DNA from: Qipengyuania sp. JC766
GTDB taxonomy: Bacteria; Pseudomonadota; Alphaproteobacteria; Sphingomonadales; Sphingomonadaceae
NCBI RefSeq assembly: GCF_040717445.1
Contig: NZ_JBFEFL010000001.1
Span: 2,428,001-2,492,000 of the forward strand
DNA length: 64,000 bases
Direction: 5' to 3'
Within the stretch, counting starts at the first letter, position 1. Every line of letters starts with the position of its first letter. Shown piece by piece: positions 3,001-45,944 of this stretch. Both the position numbers and the translations under genes were made by a program. The notes beneath the pieces are model-generated. The model had not been told where the DNA came from and ran no database searches. It worked only from the letters and a program-made list of their open reading frames with translations.

Positions 3001-3357
3001 AAGCGTGCGCAGCCGATCGTGATGACGACGGTCGCGATGACCGCGGGGATGGTCCCGATCGCCCTGTCCGGCGTCCTGGGTTCCGGCGACGGCGCCTGGC
3101 GCGCGCCCATGGGCACCATGGTGATCGGCGGCCTGATCATGTCGACGCTGCTGACCTTGCTGATCGTCCCGGCCGGCTTCAGCCTGGCGGACGGCATCGA
3201 GAAGCGGCTTGGTCCGTGGCTGCGCACCCGCATGCTGACCTACCGTCCGGGAGACGGCGGAAAGCATGATGGTCCGTCCGGCACCTCGGATGAGCAGGGC
3301 GGCGCGGCCGTGCCCGCAGCGCGGCGGGACGATCCGGGGCCGCATCCCGCCGAGTGA
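1..3357 (+). CDS. RND efflux permease (HAE-1/AcrB-like), 5' truncated by window edge
   Basis: Inner-membrane resistance-nodulation-division pump subunit, which exports substrates using the proton gradient together with a periplasmic adaptor and an outer-membrane channel. The reading frame is open from base 1, and the first residues already lie in the first porter domain, so by comparison with AcrB roughly 50-60 N-terminal residues including TM1 are missing. The TM4 motif with paired aspartates (GVLVDDAIVEIEN, about 1003-1047) is the proton relay of this family. The TM10-TM12 block at the end is also typical (LLGIVSKNSILLIDFAI). The segment between TM6 and TM7 (about 1400-1750) is longer than in AcrB and appears to carry two additional hydrophobic helices. 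The C-terminal tail is hydrophilic and Gly/Pro/Ala-rich. The stop overlaps the GTG start of the next gene by 4 bases. The substrate cannot be told. Confidence 0.93.
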   Translation, partial: NQITQRVESAVRSINGVKTINSTASEGNSNTFIEFEIGIDPNDAVSEVKNAVDTIRGSLPDGILEPRVTKEEIAGGFLGVYAVEADDMTIEQLSWFIDDTIAKQLLAIEGMAEVSRFAGVDREIEVILDLPKMQAFGVTASQINAVLRQTNVDAAGGATEVGGTRQSVRVLGSTETAYELSQRQIQLGNGNTVKLADVATVRDGYSERTSISKVRDKEVVNFAISRAKGASDVTVYYEAMEVMEQIEADNPGITFIPLFNTVKYTEEQYETSMAAMIEGAILAVIVVFFFLRDWRATAISAIAIPLSAIPTFWFMDLLGFNLNQLSLLALALVAGVLVDDAIVEIENIVRHMRMGKSAYQASIDAADEIGLPVVATSFCIVAVFLPVGLMPGISGQFFKNFGITVVIAVLMSLAVARMITPMLAAYFLKAKGHASHGEGPMMDRYMGVLGWSLDRGKMYARRKGLDAPRNRFLYGLSFTAVVIALIILPMLVSFGLPGDDQNPGIPGALQAIQSLSVPEQVAGAIGGAPDSWLHGFFLKTFEFLEFGATILVAFLAGLVFLKLIGLLFGRMDAWRWLEARFYDHRAWMLMVGYFALLLTVLLFMSVPPQFQPTINDDNSRVEIEMVPGTTLETTERVADRVAAILYEQPEVERALERVREGAATIFVTLKADREKTSIEFERDLAPTLAQIPDARVRFQSQSGGFGSGRDMTVMLAGSDPELLEETAATLVEQMRGIDMLVAPRISADVNRPEIIIEPRADLAAELGVTTAALSQTIRIATLGEIEQNAAKFSLSDRQIPIRVKLPEQSREDLTTIENLPVPTASGGSVPLARVAEISFGSGPTSIQRYNQNRRVLVGADLASGVVKGEAQQRIDQLPILQDLPQGVIRDVVGEDEWQQELMNSLTVAILSGILLVFAVLVLLYKRLMSPLVNMTSLALAPLGGIFLVWLVGQPQSMPVYIGVLLLLGIVSKNSILLIDFAIVEMEKGTRKFDAIMDAGHKRAQPIVMTTVAMTAGMVPIALSGVLGSGDGAWRAPMGTMVIGGLIMSTLLTLLIVPAGFSLADGIEKRLGPWLRTRMLTYRPGDGGKHDGPSGTSDEQGGAAVPAARRDDPGPHPAE

Positions 3358-4637
3358 CCCGAACCGCGCAACAGGTTTCCGCCTTCGGCGGTGCCCCGCT
3401 TCCGCCTGACCGCGCGCGGCGCATGCGCATCGCCGCCACGCTCATGCTGGTGGCGATGGCCGTGCTGTTCTTCGGCTCCCGCCCCTTTCTGGAAGCACAC
3501 CCGGCTGTCGGCTATCTCCACGCCTTTGCCGAGGCTGCCATGGTCGGTGGGCTGGCGGACTGGTTCGCGGTCACGGCGCTGTTCCGGCACCCTCTCGGGC
3601 TGCCGATCCCCCACACCGCGATTATCCCGGAAAACAAGGACCGCATCGCCGACACGATGGCGCAGTTCCTGCGCGAAAACTTCCTGACGCCAGCGGTCGT
3701 AGCGCGCCGGATGCAGGCGATGAATGTCGCGGGCGCCGCGGGGGAGTTCCTGTCCCAGCCGCAATCGGGGGCTGGTACGCGGATCGGGGAAGGGGCGGCC
3801 GAACTGATGGCCGGCGTGCTGGAAGCCCTCGATCCGGAACGGCTCGGCGGGCAGGTGCGTGCCGGGCTCAAGACGCAGCTCGCCCGGCTCGAGATCGCAC
3901 CTTTGCTCGGCCAGATGCTGGAAGCGGCGATCGCGGACAAGCGGCACCTGCCGCTGATCGATGGTTTCGTGCGCTGGGCGGGCCTGACGCTCGAGGATAA
4001 CGAGCAGATGGTCCGCGACATGATCCACGCACGCGCCAACGCCCTGCTGCGCTTCACCGGGCTCGACGAGCGGCTGGCGAATTCCGTTCTCGACGGGCTC
4101 TACAAGCTTCTCGCCGAAGTGCTGGTGGACAAGGACCACCCCTTGCGAAACAAGATTGAGGAAGGGCTCGAAAGCATCGCCCGCGACCTGCAGCACGACC
4201 CGGCGACGCGGGAAAAGGTCGAGCGGATGAAGCGCGAGCTGCTGGAAAACCCGGCGGTGGCGGACTGGTGGCAGGGCGTGTGGGAGCGGCTGCGCCTCGG
4301 CCTCATCGACCTCGCGCGTCGCCCGGATGACCTTATGGGCGGCCAGATCGGCGAAATGGTACGCGAACTCGGCCTCGCCCTCTCGGGCGACCCGCGCATG
4401 CAGCGCCAGGTCAACCGCTTCGCCCGCCGCACCGCCGTCGGCGTCACCTCACGCTATGGGGGACAGATCGTGCGGCTGGTGTCCGAGACGGTGCGCCGCT
4501 GGGACGCGAGAACGATAACCGACCGCGTCGAGAACGCCGTCGGCCGCGACCTCCAGTTCATCCGCATCAACGGCACGCTTGTCGGCGGCCTTGTCGGCAT
4601 GACCCTGCACCTGATCGACCGGCTGGTGTGGGGGTAG
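3354..4637 (+). CDS. DUF445 family membrane protein (YjiN-like)
   Basis: Protein of 427 residues starting with GTG in a 4-base overlap with the RND gene, which suggests translational coupling. An N-terminal hydrophobic helix (about residues 24-43) is followed by a conserved glycine-rich stretch with GGLADWFAVTALFRHPLG, the hallmark of the DUF445/COG2733 family. A long helical middle region follows, and a C-terminal hydrophobic segment (LVGGLVGMTLHLIDRLVW) probably re-enters the membrane. The family is widespread in Gram-negative bacteria and its biochemical role is unknown. Placement behind an efflux pump suggests an envelope role, but this is inference. Confidence 0.85.
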   Translation: MTRTAQQVSAFGGAPLPPDRARRMRIAATLMLVAMAVLFFGSRPFLEAHPAVGYLHAFAEAAMVGGLADWFAVTALFRHPLGLPIPHTAIIPENKDRIADTMAQFLRENFLTPAVVARRMQAMNVAGAAGEFLSQPQSGAGTRIGEGAAELMAGVLEALDPERLGGQVRAGLKTQLARLEIAPLLGQMLEAAIADKRHLPLIDGFVRWAGLTLEDNEQMVRDMIHARANALLRFTGLDERLANSVLDGLYKLLAEVLVDKDHPLRNKIEEGLESIARDLQHDPATREKVERMKRELLENPAVADWWQGVWERLRLGLIDLARRPDDLMGGQIGEMVRELGLALSGDPRMQRQVNRFARRTAVGVTSRYGGQIVRLVSETVRRWDARTITDRVENAVGRDLQFIRINGTLVGGLVGMTLHLIDRLVWG

Positions 4638-4652
4638 TGATTGCACGCCTGA

Positions 4653-5585
4653 TCAATTGGGAATCGTGAAGAAAACCGCACCTTGGAAGATCGATTCTAT
4701 GGGAGTTCCCTCAGCGTTTAGCGCGGGAATCAATTCGGCCCTTTCCAACAACCGGTCGCAAACGATCCGATCGAACTCCTCGGGACGGGTCGAACGCTGA
4801 ATATTGCAACTAGTCGGTTTGCCCTCCTCGTCGACATTCAGCCTAAAATAAATCAGCCCTTGCATTCCTTTTCGGATCAGGTCGGTGGGGTAGTCGCTAT
4901 CTCGAACCCAGCCGAGACTGTCACCTTTAATCAAGACACGACGGGTCAGCGATCGATGGGCTTGGATATCAATACCCCACGTCGATATGAGATCATCGGT
5001 GCACTTCCTCATCGCCTTCATAGGCTCGCCAAGAGAACCGGTTTCAAGTACCACGCGACCACGACGTTTTGATTCAATGGCGACAAATTCTACCGCCGCT
5101 TCGTATTGCGGCGAAATTTGTTGGCCAAACAGGTCGAAGGGATTGCTCGGTTCCAGATCAGCGTCTGTTTTGGCGGTCTTGGCATCGCGGCTTTCCGGGT
5201 CTTCGACCTCGTCCAAGGTAGATCTGGAAATCATGAGTGCCGGTGAGAACCGGCCTAAATCGGCCTCGATGACATCTTCTTCTCGCAGCTCACCGCTTTC
5301 ACCGAATTGTATTCTGACATCAGAGCGAGCGAATTTCTCGAATGGTGCGCCCGCGACTACGATGGAAAAGTTGTCTCCAGGTTGGTATCGTTCGAGATAA
5401 AATAAAACCTTCTCATCACCCTCGCCAAACATCCGCGCGAGACGGCAGGCCCCCTCGGCGTAGTCCAAAGCCCACTCGGAAGACGGCTCCATATGTTTTT
5501 CCGTCTTAGCATTGGCGAGTGCGGAAAAAGAAACGGCGGCACCCATAGATACCGCCGTCGCAATAAGTCTGTATAAATAGATCAT
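4653..5585 (-). CDS. Secreted protein with TonB-like C-terminal domain, orphan
   Basis: Protein of 310 residues with a signal peptide (hydrophobic residues about 5-24, likely cleaved after ALANA). There is no retained N-terminal anchor and no proline-rich spacer, so it is not a conventional TonB. The last 85 residues resemble a TonB C-terminal domain. They begin GWVRDSDY and continue with a GLIYFRLNVDEEGKPTSC strand, the same pattern as the end of the TonB encoded at 45168-45944. The middle region (residues about 30-200) is not recognised. It is convergent with the DUF445 gene (15-base gap). Composition differs from the neighbours: 30 of 60 bases are G/C in 5341-5400, against roughly two thirds in flanking genes, so recent acquisition is possible. 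Function unknown. Confidence 0.75.
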   Translation of the reverse strand: MIYLYRLIATAVSMGAAVSFSALANAKTEKHMEPSSEWALDYAEGACRLARMFGEGDEKVLFYLERYQPGDNFSIVVAGAPFEKFARSDVRIQFGESGELREEDVIEADLGRFSPALMISRSTLDEVEDPESRDAKTAKTDADLEPSNPFDLFGQQISPQYEAAVEFVAIESKRRGRVVLETGSLGEPMKAMRKCTDDLISTWGIDIQAHRSLTRRVLIKGDSLGWVRDSDYPTDLIRKGMQGLIYFRLNVDEEGKPTSCNIQRSTRPEEFDRIVCDRLLERAELIPALNAEGTPIESIFQGAVFFTIPN

Positions 5586-5624
5586 CCGACAAGATTACGC
5601 GTCGGAGTTGCGGTATTCAAGTTG

Positions 5625-6554
5625 TCAGAGCTTCTCCGTCAGCTCCGGGACCGCCTTGTAGAGGTCCGCGACCAGGCCGATGTCGGCGACCTGGAAGATC
5701 GGGGCGTCCTCGTCCTTGTTGATGGCGATGATGGTCTTGGAATCCTTCATGCCGGCGAGGTGCTGGATCGCGCCGGAAATGCCGATGGCGATGTAGACTT
5801 CCGGGGCGACGATCTTGCCCGTCTGGCCGACCTGGTAGTCGTTGGGGACGTAGCCCGCATCGACTGCGGCGCGACTGGCACCGACACCGGCATTCAGCTT
5901 GTCCGCCAGCGGGTTGATGATCTGTTCGAAGGTCTCGCCATCCTTGAGCGCGCGGCCGCCGGAGACGATGATCTTGGCGCTGGTCAGTTCGGGGCGGTCG
6001 CTTTCCGCGAGTTCCTGGCTGACGAAGCTGGACGTGCCGGCATCGCCGGGGCCCGAGACGTCCTCCACCGATGCGGAGCCGCCTTCCGCTTCCGCCTTGT
6101 CGAAGGCGGTGCCGCGCACCGTGACGACCAGCTTGGCATCCGAGGATTCCACGGTCGCGATGGCGTTTCCGGCATAGATCGGGCGAGTGAAGGTCTTGTC
6201 GCCTTCCACCGAGAGGATGTCGGAAATCTGCATCACGTCGAGCAGGGCGGCGACGCGCGGGGCGATGTTCTTGCCCGTGGTCGTGGCCGGCGCGACGAGC
6301 GCGTCGTAGCCTTCCATCACCTTGGCCACCAGCGGGGCGACGTTTTCGGGCAGCTGGTGCCCGTAGGCGGCATCGTCCGCCTTCAGTACCTTGCCAACGC
6401 CTGCGATCTTGGCTGCGGCGTCCGCGGCGGCGCCGCAGTTCTCGCCCGCGACCAGCGCGTCGACATCGCCGAGCTTGCCGGCAGCGGTCACCGCCGCCAG
6501 CGTCGCGTCGGCGACGGTTTCGTTGTCGTGTTCGACCAGAACGAGTGTCTTCAT
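5625..6554 (-). CDS. etfA: Electron transfer flavoprotein subunit alpha
   Basis: The 309-residue FAD-binding subunit of the EtfAB heterodimer. The dimer collects electrons from acyl-CoA and other dehydrogenases and passes them to ETF:ubiquinone oxidoreductase. The start [12 protein letters not shown] is standard for the family, and an AGGAA Shine-Dalgarno precedes the ATG. The C-terminal FAD domain shows [20 protein letters not shown] and the [16 protein letters not shown] motif. Length is normal. It lies 58 bases downstream of etfB, giving the usual etfBA operon order. Confidence 0.97.
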
Positions 6555-6612: not shown

Positions 6613-7359
6613 TCAGACGATGCCGAGCGCCTTCATCTTGGCGACGAGCGCATCGACGTCCTCGACCTTTTCGCCGGCCTGCCGCACGGGCGGTTCGGCG
6701 ACCTTTGTGGTGGTGAGGCGCGGCGCGATGTCGACGCCGTAATCGGACGGCGCCTTGGTATCGAGCGGCTTCTTCTTCGCCTTCATGATGTTGGGCAGCG
6801 AAGCGTAGCGCGGCTCGTTCAGGCGCAGGTCGGTGGTGACGATGGCCGGCATGGTCAGCTTGACCGTTTCCAGGCCGCCGTCGATCTCGCGCTTCACGGT
6901 GACGCTGTCGCCGTCGATCTCGACCTTGTTAGCAAAGGTGCCCTGCGGGCGCTCCATCAGCGCGGCCAGCATCTGGCCGGTCTGGTTGCTGTCGTCCGAA
7001 ATCGACTGCTTGCCCAGCATTACGATGCCGGGCTGTTCCTCGTCCGCGATGGCCTTCAGGATCTTGGCGACGGCCAGAGGCTCGACCTCTTCGTCCGTCT
7101 CCACCAGGATCGCCCTGTCCGCACCCATGGCGAGCGCCGTGCGCAGCGTTTCCTGCGCCTTGGCCGGGCCGATGCTGACGGCGATGATTTCTTCCGCCTT
7201 GCCGGCTTCCTTGATCCGGATGGCTTCCTCGACCGCGATCTCGTCGAACGGGTTCATGCTCATCTTGACGTTGGCAAGGTCCACGCCGGTGCCGTCGGCC
7301 TTGACGCGCGGCTTGACGTTGTAATCGATCACCCGCTTCACGGGCACGAGGATTTTCAT
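6613..7359 (-). CDS. etfB: Electron transfer flavoprotein subunit beta
   Basis: The 248-residue beta subunit, which binds AMP and docks partner dehydrogenases. The N-terminus [20 protein letters not shown] and the segment [16 protein letters not shown] are diagnostic of EtfB. The recognition-loop region (around [13 protein letters not shown]) carries the expected basic stretch. It is the first gene of etfBA. A purine-rich GAAAGGAC precedes the ATG. The 194-base divergent gap to the ExoD-family gene must hold the promoter, but I could not pick a convincing -35/-10 pair. Confidence 0.97.
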
Positions 7360-43623: not shown

Positions 43624-44151
43624 TCAGCCTGGATCGACCGGATTGGAAATGAAGCCGACGGTGGGATAACCGGCGCGCTGGATGGTGTAGATCGTGCCGG
43701 CGATACACCGCCACGGAGCGTTGACGTCGCCGCGGATGTGAACCTGCGGGATCATTTCTGGGTTCTGAAGCAGCGCTTCGGCGCCGCCCGCCCTCTGCAC
43801 GAGACCGTCGAGACGATCGAACGAGCTCTGGTACAGTTCCTCGGACGTCACCGGAGTGGTGTTGTTGTAATAGATCCGGCATTCGCCATCGCGAGAGGCG
43901 CCCTGGTAGCCCTCCTGACCCGCGCTGAGCCCCTGGCTGTCGCTCGTCGAAACGGTCAGCAGGAGATTCTCGACCTTGTCTTCCGACTCGATGGTTTCGA
44001 GGATCGGGATCTCGAGCTTGTCGATCGTCTGGATTGCGACGGGAACGGCGATGAGGAAGATGATCAGGAGCACCAGCATGACGTCCACGAGGGGCGTCGT
44101 GTTGATGTCTGACATCGGGGCTCCTTCTTCCCCTCCGAGTGCAACTGCCAT
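43624..44151 (-). CDS. ExbD/TolR-family protein, first copy (long form)
   Basis: Protein of 175 residues. Asp23 lies in INTTPLVDVMLVLLIIFLI at the membrane helix. The periplasmic domain is longer and unlike the other two copies, with two cysteines (GECRIYY and PWRCIAGT) that could form a disulfide. It probably forms heteromeric stators with the second ExbD. It lies 99 bases downstream of exbB, after a strong stem-loop. Confidence 0.92.
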   Translation of the reverse strand: MAVALGGEEGAPMSDINTTPLVDVMLVLLIIFLIAVPVAIQTIDKLEIPILETIESEDKVENLLLTVSTSDSQGLSAGQEGYQGASRDGECRIYYNNTTPVTSEELYQSSFDRLDGLVQRAGGAEALLQNPEMIPQVHIRGDVNAPWRCIAGTIYTIQRAGYPTVGFISNPVDPG

Positions 44152-44202
44152 GTCTTACTTTCCTAACCTGATTGGCGCCTGAAGTTTATCCGCCTTTGAA
44201 GG

Positions 44203-44234
44203 CCGGGAGGTGCGCATCCTGTCGCACCTCCCGG
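44203..44234 (-). other. Intercistronic stem-loop between exbB and exbD
   Basis: CCGGGAGGTGCG (44203-44214) pairs perfectly with CGCACCTCCCGG (44223-44234) over 12 bp, with an 8-base loop. On the minus strand it is followed by CCTTCAAAGG rather than a U-run. It therefore looks more like a 3'-end stabiliser or attenuator than a full terminator. Confidence 0.6.
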
Positions 44235-44250
44235 TATCTCAGCCGGATGT

Positions 44251-45102
44251 TCAGGGCTTCTTCGGGGTGGTCGTGGTCGTGGTCGTCGCCGTGGGGCTCT
44301 TGACGGTACCCGCAGCAGTCGTGCCGGCCGGCTTAGCCGTGGCGGGGGCGGTCTTGGCAGCCTTCGAAGCCTGTTGGGTCGACGCACCGGTCATGAGGGC
44401 CGGCTTCACTTCACCGTTCGAGCTCATATAGGCGAGCAGGTCGGTCGAGAAACCGCTCAGACGCGCCGCGATCTTGCGGTTGCGGCTCTGCAGCCAGTTG
44501 TAGGCCATGACGGCCGGAACCGCGACGAGCAGACCGATGGCGGTCATGATCAGGGCTTCACCGACCGGGCCGGCGACCTTGTCGATCGAGGCCGAACCGG
44601 CGAGGCCGATGTTGATCAGGGCGCGGTAGATACCGATCACCGTACCGAGCAGACCGATGAACGGCGCGGTCGCACCGGTGGTCGCGAGGAACGGCAGGCC
44701 GCCGGCGAGCTTCGTGTTGATCGAGGCTTCCGAGCGGGCAAGCGAACCGTGAAGGTAATCGTGCGATTCGGTCTTGTCGGTCATCTTGCGGTGCTCGGCG
44801 TCGGCCTTGAGGCCATCGTCGACGAGCTGGCGCCATGCGCTGTTCTGGTCGAGCTTCTTCGCGCCTTCCGGGAGCGAATTGGCGCGCCAGAAGCTGGTCT
44901 GCACATCCTTGTACTGGTTCAGGATCTTGTTCTGTTCGAGCAGCTTCGTGATCAGGATGTAGAACGAACCGACGGACATGATGACGAGCACGGCCAGAAT
45001 CGACCACGCGATCGGGCCGCCCTGTTCCATGGCTTCCCAGAATCCGAATTCATTCACCACCTCGGTGTCCGCTCCTGCGGCAGTAAGCATTTCGATAATC
45101 AT
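44251..45102 (-). CDS. exbB: ExbB/TolQ/MotA-family proton channel protein
   Basis: Protein of 283 residues. Three membrane helices are visible (about residues 29-52, 138-163, 178-205), with the large cytoplasmic loop between the first and second. LGTVIGIYRALINIG and the GEALIMTAIGLLVAVPAVMAYN signature of PF01618 are present. It forms the pentameric channel around ExbD dimers that drives TonB. The C-terminal tail (residues about 240-283) is an unusual Ala/Lys/Thr/Pro-rich sequence ending in a seven-Thr run before PKKP. It is 65 bases downstream of tonB. Confidence 0.94.
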   Translation of the reverse strand: MIIEMLTAAGADTEVVNEFGFWEAMEQGGPIAWSILAVLVIMSVGSFYILITKLLEQNKILNQYKDVQTSFWRANSLPEGAKKLDQNSAWRQLVDDGLKADAEHRKMTDKTESHDYLHGSLARSEASINTKLAGGLPFLATTGATAPFIGLLGTVIGIYRALINIGLAGSASIDKVAGPVGEALIMTAIGLLVAVPAVMAYNWLQSRNRKIAARLSGFSTDLLAYMSSNGEVKPALMTGASTQQASKAAKTAPATAKPAGTTAAGTVKSPTATTTTTTTPKKP

Positions 45103-45167: not shown

Positions 45168-45944
45168 TTACTGCGGGATTTGCCACTGAACGGTACCAGA
45201 AAAGGTTCCGTCGGTCCTGTTCCCGCTGCTGTCGGTAGCGGCATTGAACCGGGCACGGCTCTGCACCAAAGAGCAAGTCGCGTCTTTGAGGGTAGACGGA
45301 GCGCTACCGCCGGTGACCGAACATGAGGTCACACGTCCATTCGATCCCACATTGACGCGGAAGCTCACGGTCCCCTCATAATCGCGATTGATCCAGCTCG
45401 AGCGATAATCGCTGTCGCGCACCCAGCCGCCATTGCTGGGGGTCGGAGGCTTCGGCGGCGCGGCCGGCGGCGGCGGCGGCGGGCAGGTCGCACTGACCGG
45501 CACCGTCTGGCCGTTCGGGCACGTCTTGGTAGCCGGCGGCGGCGGCGGACAGGCCTGTCCGATCGGGACGACACGACCGTTCAAGCAAGTCTTGGACGTC
45601 GGCTCGTCACGCGGATTCGGATCGAAATTCGAGAAATCCGGCGGATCGGGCGTGAAATCACGCGGCGGCGGTGCTTCCGACAGGCGGTTCGGCTGCGGCG
45701 GGATGACCACCGGCTGCTCGACACTCTGCGGCTCGTCCGGCGGAGGCGGGGGAGGGGTTTCCTCCGGTTCCGGCTCTTCCGGTTCTTCTTCGATATCGAC
45801 CGTGGTCACGGTCTCCTGCACCTTTTCGAATGCGCTCTGTGCCAGGCCGGTAACCAGCAAGAAGCCGATACCCACGTGGATCAATCCGACGATGATCAAC
45901 GCGATAATCCTGTTGGAGCTCATCTCCTGGTCAGCATAGGCCAT
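45168..45944 (-). CDS. tonB: Energy transducer TonB with Cys-containing repeats in the spacer
   Basis: Protein of 258 residues with an N-terminal cytoplasmic stub and a transmembrane helix (about 13-34), placing the rest in the periplasm. An acidic/proline-rich spacer (about 51-115) comes next. Two 22-residue repeats with cysteines at 120, 132, 142 and 154 follow, and then a TonB C-terminal domain starting GWVRDSDYRSSWINRDYEGT. It couples the ExbB-ExbD motor to TonB-dependent receptors. Paired cysteines in the spacer are not a feature of classical TonB. It heads the leftward cluster. Confidence 0.92.
   Translation of the reverse strand: MAYADQEMSSNRIIALIIVGLIHVGIGFLLVTGLAQSAFEKVQETVTTVDIEEEPEEPEPEETPPPPPPDEPQSVEQPVVIPPQPNRLSEAPPPRDFTPDPPDFSNFDPNPRDEPTSKTCLNGRVVPIGQACPPPPPATKTCPNGQTVPVSATCPPPPPPAAPPKPPTPSNGGWVRDSDYRSSWINRDYEGTVSFRVNVGSNGRVTSCSVTGGSAPSTLKDATCSLVQSRARFNAATDSSGNRTDGTFSGTVQWQIPQ
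45462..45593 (-). repeat. Two 22-residue coding repeats inside tonB
   Basis: Residues 118-139 (KTCLNGRVVPIGQACPPPPP and AT) and 140-161 (KTCPNGQTVPVSATCPPPPP and PA) share the pattern K-T-C-x-N-G-x-x-V-P-x5-C-P5. They are tandem with no gap. Four cysteines could form two small disulfide loops. Confidence 0.85.

Follow-up and report, generated by a model that had tools for sequence, protein, structure and literature searches.

A TonB C-terminal domain on a predicted soluble two-domain periplasmic protein encoded between etfA and a DUF445 gene in Qipengyuania sp. JC766 and its relatives

The gene at 4653..5585 (-) of the window, the whole 64-kb stretch of Qipengyuania sp. JC766 DNA that was analysed, is a real ORF whose 310-aa product joins a signal-like N-terminus and an IalB/MotY-N-like domain to a TonB C-terminal domain, and the best reading of its sequence is that the protein is not an energy transducer. 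Rather, we propose a soluble, disulfide-locked periplasmic two-domain adaptor, a function that we consider evenly balanced between right and wrong. TonB is the rod that powers nutrient import, and TonB domains are usually taken as the sign of an energy transducer; here, the TonB domain sits on predicted exported, anchorless proteins that are under purifying selection and possess a signature of their own as well as a second domain. Naming these genes 'energy transducer TonB' would therefore be misleading, and the family may offer a small system in which to study the role of a TonB domain that has no motor. The TonB domain itself is already known; its combination with this N-terminal domain appears not to have been described, and a literature search covering titles and the starts of abstracts, with most subscription papers outside its scope, returned no description of such a family.

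The protein was aligned with 35 homologs, giving a set of 36 members in which some homologs are tandem copies from one genome. PF03544 (TonB_C) was the single Pfam match of the window copy, covering residues 231-306 with 28.9 bits against a cut-off of 24.6, whereas the score against TIGR01352 (24.5 bits) remained under the cut-off of 27.1; these are the two profiles with which the sequence-only reading had suggested checking the tail, and the first of them bears out its TonB character. All 36 members matched PF03544 in a Pfam scan, six also matched TonB_2 weakly, and seven other Pfam families matched one member each with E values of 0.16 or worse. The likeness of the tail (residues 223-310; 4656..4919, -) to the TonB of the same window (45168..45944, -), which had been pointed out earlier, was confirmed (E = 1.1e-11, 34% over 86 aa), and the TSC common to them is visible in both sequences. 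This second protein is an anchored TonB with a PF03544 match, an anchor histidine and a spacer of 32% Pro, and it is accompanied by an ExbB-type gene (44251-45102, -) and an ExbD-type gene (43624-44151, -), with matches to PF01618 and PF02472 in 43624..45102.

At the other end of the protein, residues 1-26 (5508..5585, -) read as a signal-peptide-like segment, with a putative cut between ..ALANA and KTEK. An [AVS]xA cleavage-like site within residues 13-44 was present in 34 of the 36 members, so that the 'cleavable signal' described before holds as far as the site is concerned, while the cleavage itself is what we infer from it. There is no second hydrophobic segment that could be a retained anchor: the best 19-mer beyond residue 45 scores 0.68 in the window copy, and the hydropathy maximum over 19 residues in this region is 1.55 in any of the 36 members. 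The Pro-rich spacer is missing as well, because Pro makes up 4.5% of residues 27-225 and, across the family, 6.5% on average and 9.6% at most of the part between the N-segment and the TonB domain, compared with 13-45% in 18 TonB-type proteins that bear the anchor histidine. At the level of sequence, these data support the earlier description of a free periplasmic TonB-type domain having neither anchor nor spacer.

Residues W38, C47, F53, C195, Y232, P233, G255, C260, F271, C276 and P287 are invariant in the 36-member alignment. The first four of these lie in the N-terminal domain (residues 28-222; 4920..5504, -), which has no Pfam match, while the TonB domain includes the invariant YP, C260 and C276 together with the motif CxIQxxS/T. 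Mean pairwise identity among the members was highest for the TonB domain (49%), followed by the two parts of the N-domain (35-37%), the signal region (21%) and the loop that separates those two parts (16%). The dN/dS values were 0.06-0.16 for the TonB domain versus 0.16-0.26 for the N-domain in the same five pairs; they are rough, as these pairs are the five of the eight closest in which both domains were estimable, involve only four sequences and have synonymous sites near saturation. The stronger conservation of the TonB domain relative to all other parts, together with its lower dN/dS, points to a conserved ligand. Since the cysteines are invariant and, in the AlphaFold2 model, each domain has one cysteine in a strand and the other in a helix, C47 would pair with C195 and C260 with C276, each disulfide locking one domain. 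For the periplasm of Novosphingobium, an even cysteine number is reported in 53 of the 55 proteins found (PMC3608174).

The AlphaFold2 model built from the window protein and 23 relatives had a mean pLDDT of 83.5 and a pTM of 0.76, and the N-domain alone reached 88.7 and 0.83, respectively. The C-part of the model matched TonB C-terminal domains (6i97_D, Z 9.1, rmsd 2.3 over 90 residues). The modelled N-domain was closest to Bartonella IalB (3dtd; Z 10.2, rmsd 2.9 over 125 residues) and to the 8z5n chain of the LPHT ring, presumably MotY, with Z values of 9.5 for the N-domain alone and 9.1 for the full-length model; the first match beyond these two scored Z 6.1. MotY itself (2zf8) gave Z 8.5 with the full-length model and was not among the matches listed for the N-domain alone. 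All these Z values are VIA-align re-scorings of Foldseek candidates, and for the N-domain they compare a predicted model with candidates that came from weak Foldseek matches: Foldseek alone gave no clear match for this domain, and IalB was not among the 50 matches listed.

The predicted fold of the N-domain thus appears similar to that of IalB and MotY in a way that does not amount to family membership. Sequence kinship with IalB was considered and rejected, as hhalign comparisons with 17 proteins of relatives that match PF06776 (probability 0.4%) and with two others found nothing; furthermore, no PF06776 match was seen in the 36 members at E values up to 1, and a PDB profile search with the N-domain yielded nothing credible. 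Beyond the predicted fold, the IalB alignment and ours share an invariant Trp ahead of the first Cys that is invariant, and in both the last Cys follows a conserved Gly at a distance of 12 residues, but IalB (PF06776, 3dtd) shows no sequence-profile kinship to the N-domain, and the protein studied here adds a TonB domain. With MotY (2zf8; 8z5n), the likeness extends from the predicted fold to the plan, an N-terminal module followed by a C-terminal docking domain; however, the C-terminal domain is peptidoglycan-binding in MotY and TonB-type here. In MotY, association with peptidoglycan is reported to be stabilised by the C-terminal domain, and association with the basal body by the N-terminal one (PMC3872333).

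The protein resembles TonB (PF03544/TIGR01352, including the anchored TonBs of this genome) in its PF03544 match and in its structural match to TonB C-terminal domains, but it differs in lacking the membrane anchor, the motor-contact histidine and the Pro-rich spacer, in having an additional N-terminal domain and in the separation of the C-terminal domains in a tree. In the published description of TonB and TolA, an anchoring helix contacts the motor through its SHLS motif, a further region spans the periplasm, and the C-terminal domain achieves binding by strand addition (PMC12204202). With a histidine within the hydrophobic N-segment as the criterion, rather than the full SHLS, none of the 36 members was positive, as compared with 18 of 21 TonB-type proteins (L014, L001 and L026 being the three without the histidine; this set differs by one from that of the tree). 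The place of TonB's periplasm-spanning region, often Pro-rich, is taken by a predicted folded domain in the AlphaFold2 model. In the TonB-domain tree, which rests on few columns, the 36 members split from 21 TonB-type domains (100/97); likewise, the C-x-I-Q-x-x-S/T motif occurred in 29 of the 36 members and in none of these 21 domains. The Cys-x15-Cys spacing is a feature common to both, being found in 35 of the 36 members and in all 21 domains of the sphingomonad TonB-type proteins.

Asp235 aligns with arginine 166 of E. coli TonB, which we take to be a receptor contact under that number. Arg was present at this position in none of the 36 members and Lys in four, which weakens the version of our proposal in which the domain docks on a TonB box. 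Weak matches to the MxcH-type receptor model NF038079 were obtained for 26 of the 36 members, and in the two that were inspected the TonB domain aligned to model positions 10-85, suggesting a TonB-like domain on a protein other than the anchored TonB. The protein is, however, different from these receptors in having no receptor barrel and a score of 24 against a cut-off of 925. Taken together, the missing anchor and the missing motor-contact histidine make it unlikely that ExbBD drives the protein.

Other TonB-like proteins were noticed alongside. A second TonB_C protein without the anchor histidine is encoded in the same genome (L001:862-1788, contig C1, about 1978974-1979900); it has 309 aa and a signal-like start, its N-part is different (W..C, then GS..A...C, by eye), and its TonB domain groups with the TonB-type domains. 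Kinship of this protein with the one studied here was considered; used as a query, its N-part gave matches in three of 59 genomes, one being its own genome, and two of the matches were weak. A Pro-rich, anchored, TonB-like frame (L005:1447-2262, contig C1, about 1652500) scored 24.3 bits against PF03544 in the genome search (25 with neighbours), but a Pfam scan of this frame by itself gave nothing at E 1e-4. In relatives, TonB_C proteins of unusual layout carry the domain near the N-terminus (L018, L031) or behind a different N-part (L026).

In the proposed mechanism, the protein of about 300 aa would be translated from a leaderless mRNA that starts at the gene's own promoter, exported and then cut free in the periplasm, where the two putative disulfides (C47-C195 and C260-C276) would lock its domains. 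The TonB domain would dock by strand addition on an extended peptide, for instance a TonB box or some other partner in the outer membrane or cell wall; a second envelope partner would be held by the IalB/MotY-N-like domain, and ExbBD would probably not drive the process. By analogy, such an adaptor would resemble MotY in plan, its MotY-N-like module being followed by a C-terminal module for docking. In its favour we counted the PF03544 match in 36 of 36 members, the four invariant cysteines, the good domain models, the higher conservation and lower dN/dS of the TonB domain, the conserved position with its tandem copies, the promoter pattern and the absence of the histidine from all 36. Against it stand the likeness to IalB/MotY being one of predicted fold only, the window copy falling under the TIGR01352 cut-off, the lack of Arg at the R166 position, the six of 20 junctions without the gene, which show that it is not kept everywhere, and the in-frame stop in one copy (G018). 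A wider claim, which we put forward tentatively and would expect to fail somewhat more readily than to hold, is that these proteins form a lineage-specific class of soluble TonB-domain adaptors, in which an IalB/MotY-N-like module is fused to a specialised TonB domain (CxIQxxS/T, disulfide-locked); the genes would be kept up through tandem duplication beside etfBA and expressed from a leaderless promoter, and the proteins would dock at the outer membrane without ExbBD. If true, the adaptor class would represent a branch of the TonB domain that has dispensed with the motor.

Three other functions were weighed against the adaptor. The sequence-only reading had suggested a negative regulator, whose free TonB domain competes with the anchored TonB for TonB boxes and thereby throttles TonB-dependent import. 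A decoy of this kind is not favoured, and we regard it as unlikely: although the C-terminal domain is a genuine TonB one by sequence and model, and anchored TonBs that could be its competitors are encoded in the genome, the domain of the family splits from the TonB-type domains, has its own motif and carries no Arg at the E. coli R166 position, and the conserved second domain would be superfluous in a simple decoy. A cell-wall or structural protein unconnected with TonB-dependent receptors, its TonB domain attaching to peptidoglycan or to itself and its N-domain organising some envelope structure, is a possibility of some weight, though still a doubtful one. It agrees with the MotY-like plan, given the peptidoglycan association of MotY's C-terminal domain (PMC3872333), and with the report that the TonB-like SjdR affects septal peptidoglycan in Anabaena (PMC8262864), but the C-terminal domain of our family is TonB-type, and SjdR, having a transmembrane domain and a truncated C-terminus (PMC8262864), is a loose parallel. 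Finally, the protein might be a substrate-binding helper whose TonB domain grips either a protein that is being imported or one particular receptor, in the manner in which FusB, a TonB homolog, directly binds its ferredoxin substrate (PMC7593965). The C-terminal domain of FusB is indeed among the structural matches of the C-part; nevertheless, we consider this role improbable, as FusB is an inner-membrane, energising TonB homolog (PMC7593965) while the present protein has no anchor, and no receptor was found among the Pfam-checked neighbours. The soluble two-domain adaptor is the reading that we prefer.

The gene had been described as an orphan in an isolated position, and neither description held. 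It starts 39 bp past etfA (5625..6554, -; PF01012, PF00766) on the same strand, and its end lies 15 bp from that of the convergent DUF445 gene (3354..4637, +; PF04286); the gene further upstream (6613..7359, -; PF01012) is presumably etfB, named by its position. With the first 220 residues as the query (E <= 0.001), 127 of the 347 genomes from the same taxonomic family gave matches (own included; no second species of the window's genus is in the set), spread over 50 of 96 genera; single genomes had as many as eight, some of which are pieces of one gene. A profile search reached 337 of the 347 genomes, its weaker matches being mostly TonB-type domains as judged by E-values.

DUF445 was also present in 337 of the 347 genomes. 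Pairing of the two genes used the best 150 matches per query, which covered 113 genomes with a family member, 149 with DUF445 and 91 with both (own included) and left out 22 genomes with family matches and 58 with DUF445 matches. In at least 74 of these 91 genomes (own included), a homolog lay within 3 kb of DUF445, as compared with 0.36 genomes expected by chance, and the nearest one was convergent and downstream in all 74; in the remaining 17, among the matches listed, the homolog was farther from DUF445 or on another contig. Members beside DUF445 were also seen by eye in the profile search in uncounted genomes, e.g. G159, G214, G344 and G337, so 74 is a low count.

The sequence-only reading had proposed comparing presence and absence at the DUF445-etfA junction across relatives, and the outcome was divided. 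Among 20 stretches past DUF445, 12 picked for having the gene and eight for seeming to lack it, 12 had the gene between EtfA and DUF445, present as one copy or two, either full-length or broken, while six had EtfA and DUF445 without the gene. The 12 included G314, which had been picked as lacking the gene and carried two copies and an 89-aa piece, G018, with its in-frame stop, and G016, where the contig ended inside EtfA. Of the other two stretches, G139 had two copies beside DUF445 and no EtfA within the stretch, and in one the contig ended too soon. Three tandem copies adjoin DUF445 in G222 and G329. Overall, the locus layout is etfB-etfA-[0 to 3 copies]-convergent DUF445 and is often conserved as judged from the sequences; the place is conserved and the presence is patchy. 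Across 25 loci (the window's own among them, and some genomes represented twice), the median gap between etfA and the gene was 48 bp; two gaps measured 1.2 and 2.5 kb.

Where the gene was missing, the etfA-DUF445 junction was a variable spot (L111, L112, L114, L115, L118), and the gap of the six empty junctions was either nearly nil (G232) or filled with other sequence and ORFs. Three of these ORFs were scanned and gave a GNAT acetyltransferase (L115), an amidohydrolase (L112) and a sigma-70 region 2 match just under the cut-off (L118). Decaying copies were also observed, namely the 89-aa third piece in G314 (L117:7536-7802) and the copy with an in-frame stop in G018 (L100:249-1127).

The low GC content that had been noted was confirmed, whereas the acquisition read from it was not. 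The gene has 52.1% GC, the lowest among 46 selected window ORFs (median 65.6%; the list is approximate, its ORFs having been picked greedily by length and GC3), and a GC3 of 0.553 as compared with 0.86-0.90 in DUF445, EtfA and EtfB and a median of 0.81 for the selected ORFs. Besides this GC and a GC3 unlike the neighbours', a recent foreign origin, which is a claim about origin and not about function, could appeal to the patchy presence of the family and to distances that do not follow those of EtfA. However, the same place and orientation in at least 74 of 91 genomes speak against it, no homolog was more than 45% identical, either in full-length alignments or among the long matches listed, and GC was below that of the own flanks in 32 of 35 homologs (mean difference 3.8 points; some are tandem copies of one genome). 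Lower GC is therefore a family trait and no mark of recent arrival, with the window copy as its extreme, 12 to 16 GC points below DUF445, EtfA and EtfB. Acquisition as the simplest reading was rejected because of the conserved position and the family-wide low GC; the recent foreign-gene reading is largely contradicted, the gene is probably not a recent import, and we give this origin very little credence.

Distances between homologs showed no significant correlation with those between EtfA proteins (Mantel r 0.12, p 0.23, 17 loci). The homologs are fast evolving, with a mean identity of 37% over the 17 loci as compared with 86% for EtfA, so this test has little power. The missing correlation counts against plain vertical descent and may reflect exchange or paralogue replacement at the spot.

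Transcription of the gene probably begins at a promoter of its own, which would give a leaderless mRNA, and is thus unlikely to depend on read-through from etfBA. The putative promoter, TTGAAT-17-TAATCT-6-ATG (5586..5620, -), lies directly past the etfA stop, and the pattern with exactly 6 nt before ATG has a single occurrence in the 64-kb window, at this gene. The general form TTGN3-N15..18-TANNNT-N5..7 before the start codon was found in 22 of 52 distinct family upstreams (own included), as compared with a mean of 0.18 in shuffles that preserve base composition only and with none of 57 control upstreams, which come from EtfA, EtfB and DUF445 only; these statistics are optimistic, because the pattern was framed after the sequences had been viewed. 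TANNNT alone, 5-7 nt before the start, occurred in 26 of the 52 (2.4 in shuffles) and ended exactly 6 nt before the start in 22, while 30 upstreams did not fit the full pattern. A sigma-70 scan of 4400-5800, which demands 9 of 12 E. coli consensus bases, called no promoter, and our literature search found no paper on leaderless mRNA in Sphingomonas. Zymomonas, which we take to belong to the same order as the window's organism, does have such transcripts. There, 119 of 2,675 TSS-gene pairs are reported as leaderless (PMC7566282). In a separate study, TTG in the -35 element is described as overrepresented in most taxa studied, and the T ending the -10 element as often missing in Alphaproteobacteria (PMC8407463). 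If the pattern is right, start codon and transcription start become one testable prediction.

Inverted repeats surround the -10 element and the start in the window (5585-5606) and at homologous places, with arm sequences that vary between genomes, and a terminator scan lists a stem at 5606-5585. The mean z of a hairpin over the start region was -0.78 in 18 upstreams with the -10 element, -1.55 in 13 without it and +0.32 in 56 controls. This start-region hairpin may be an etfA terminator that overlaps the promoter.
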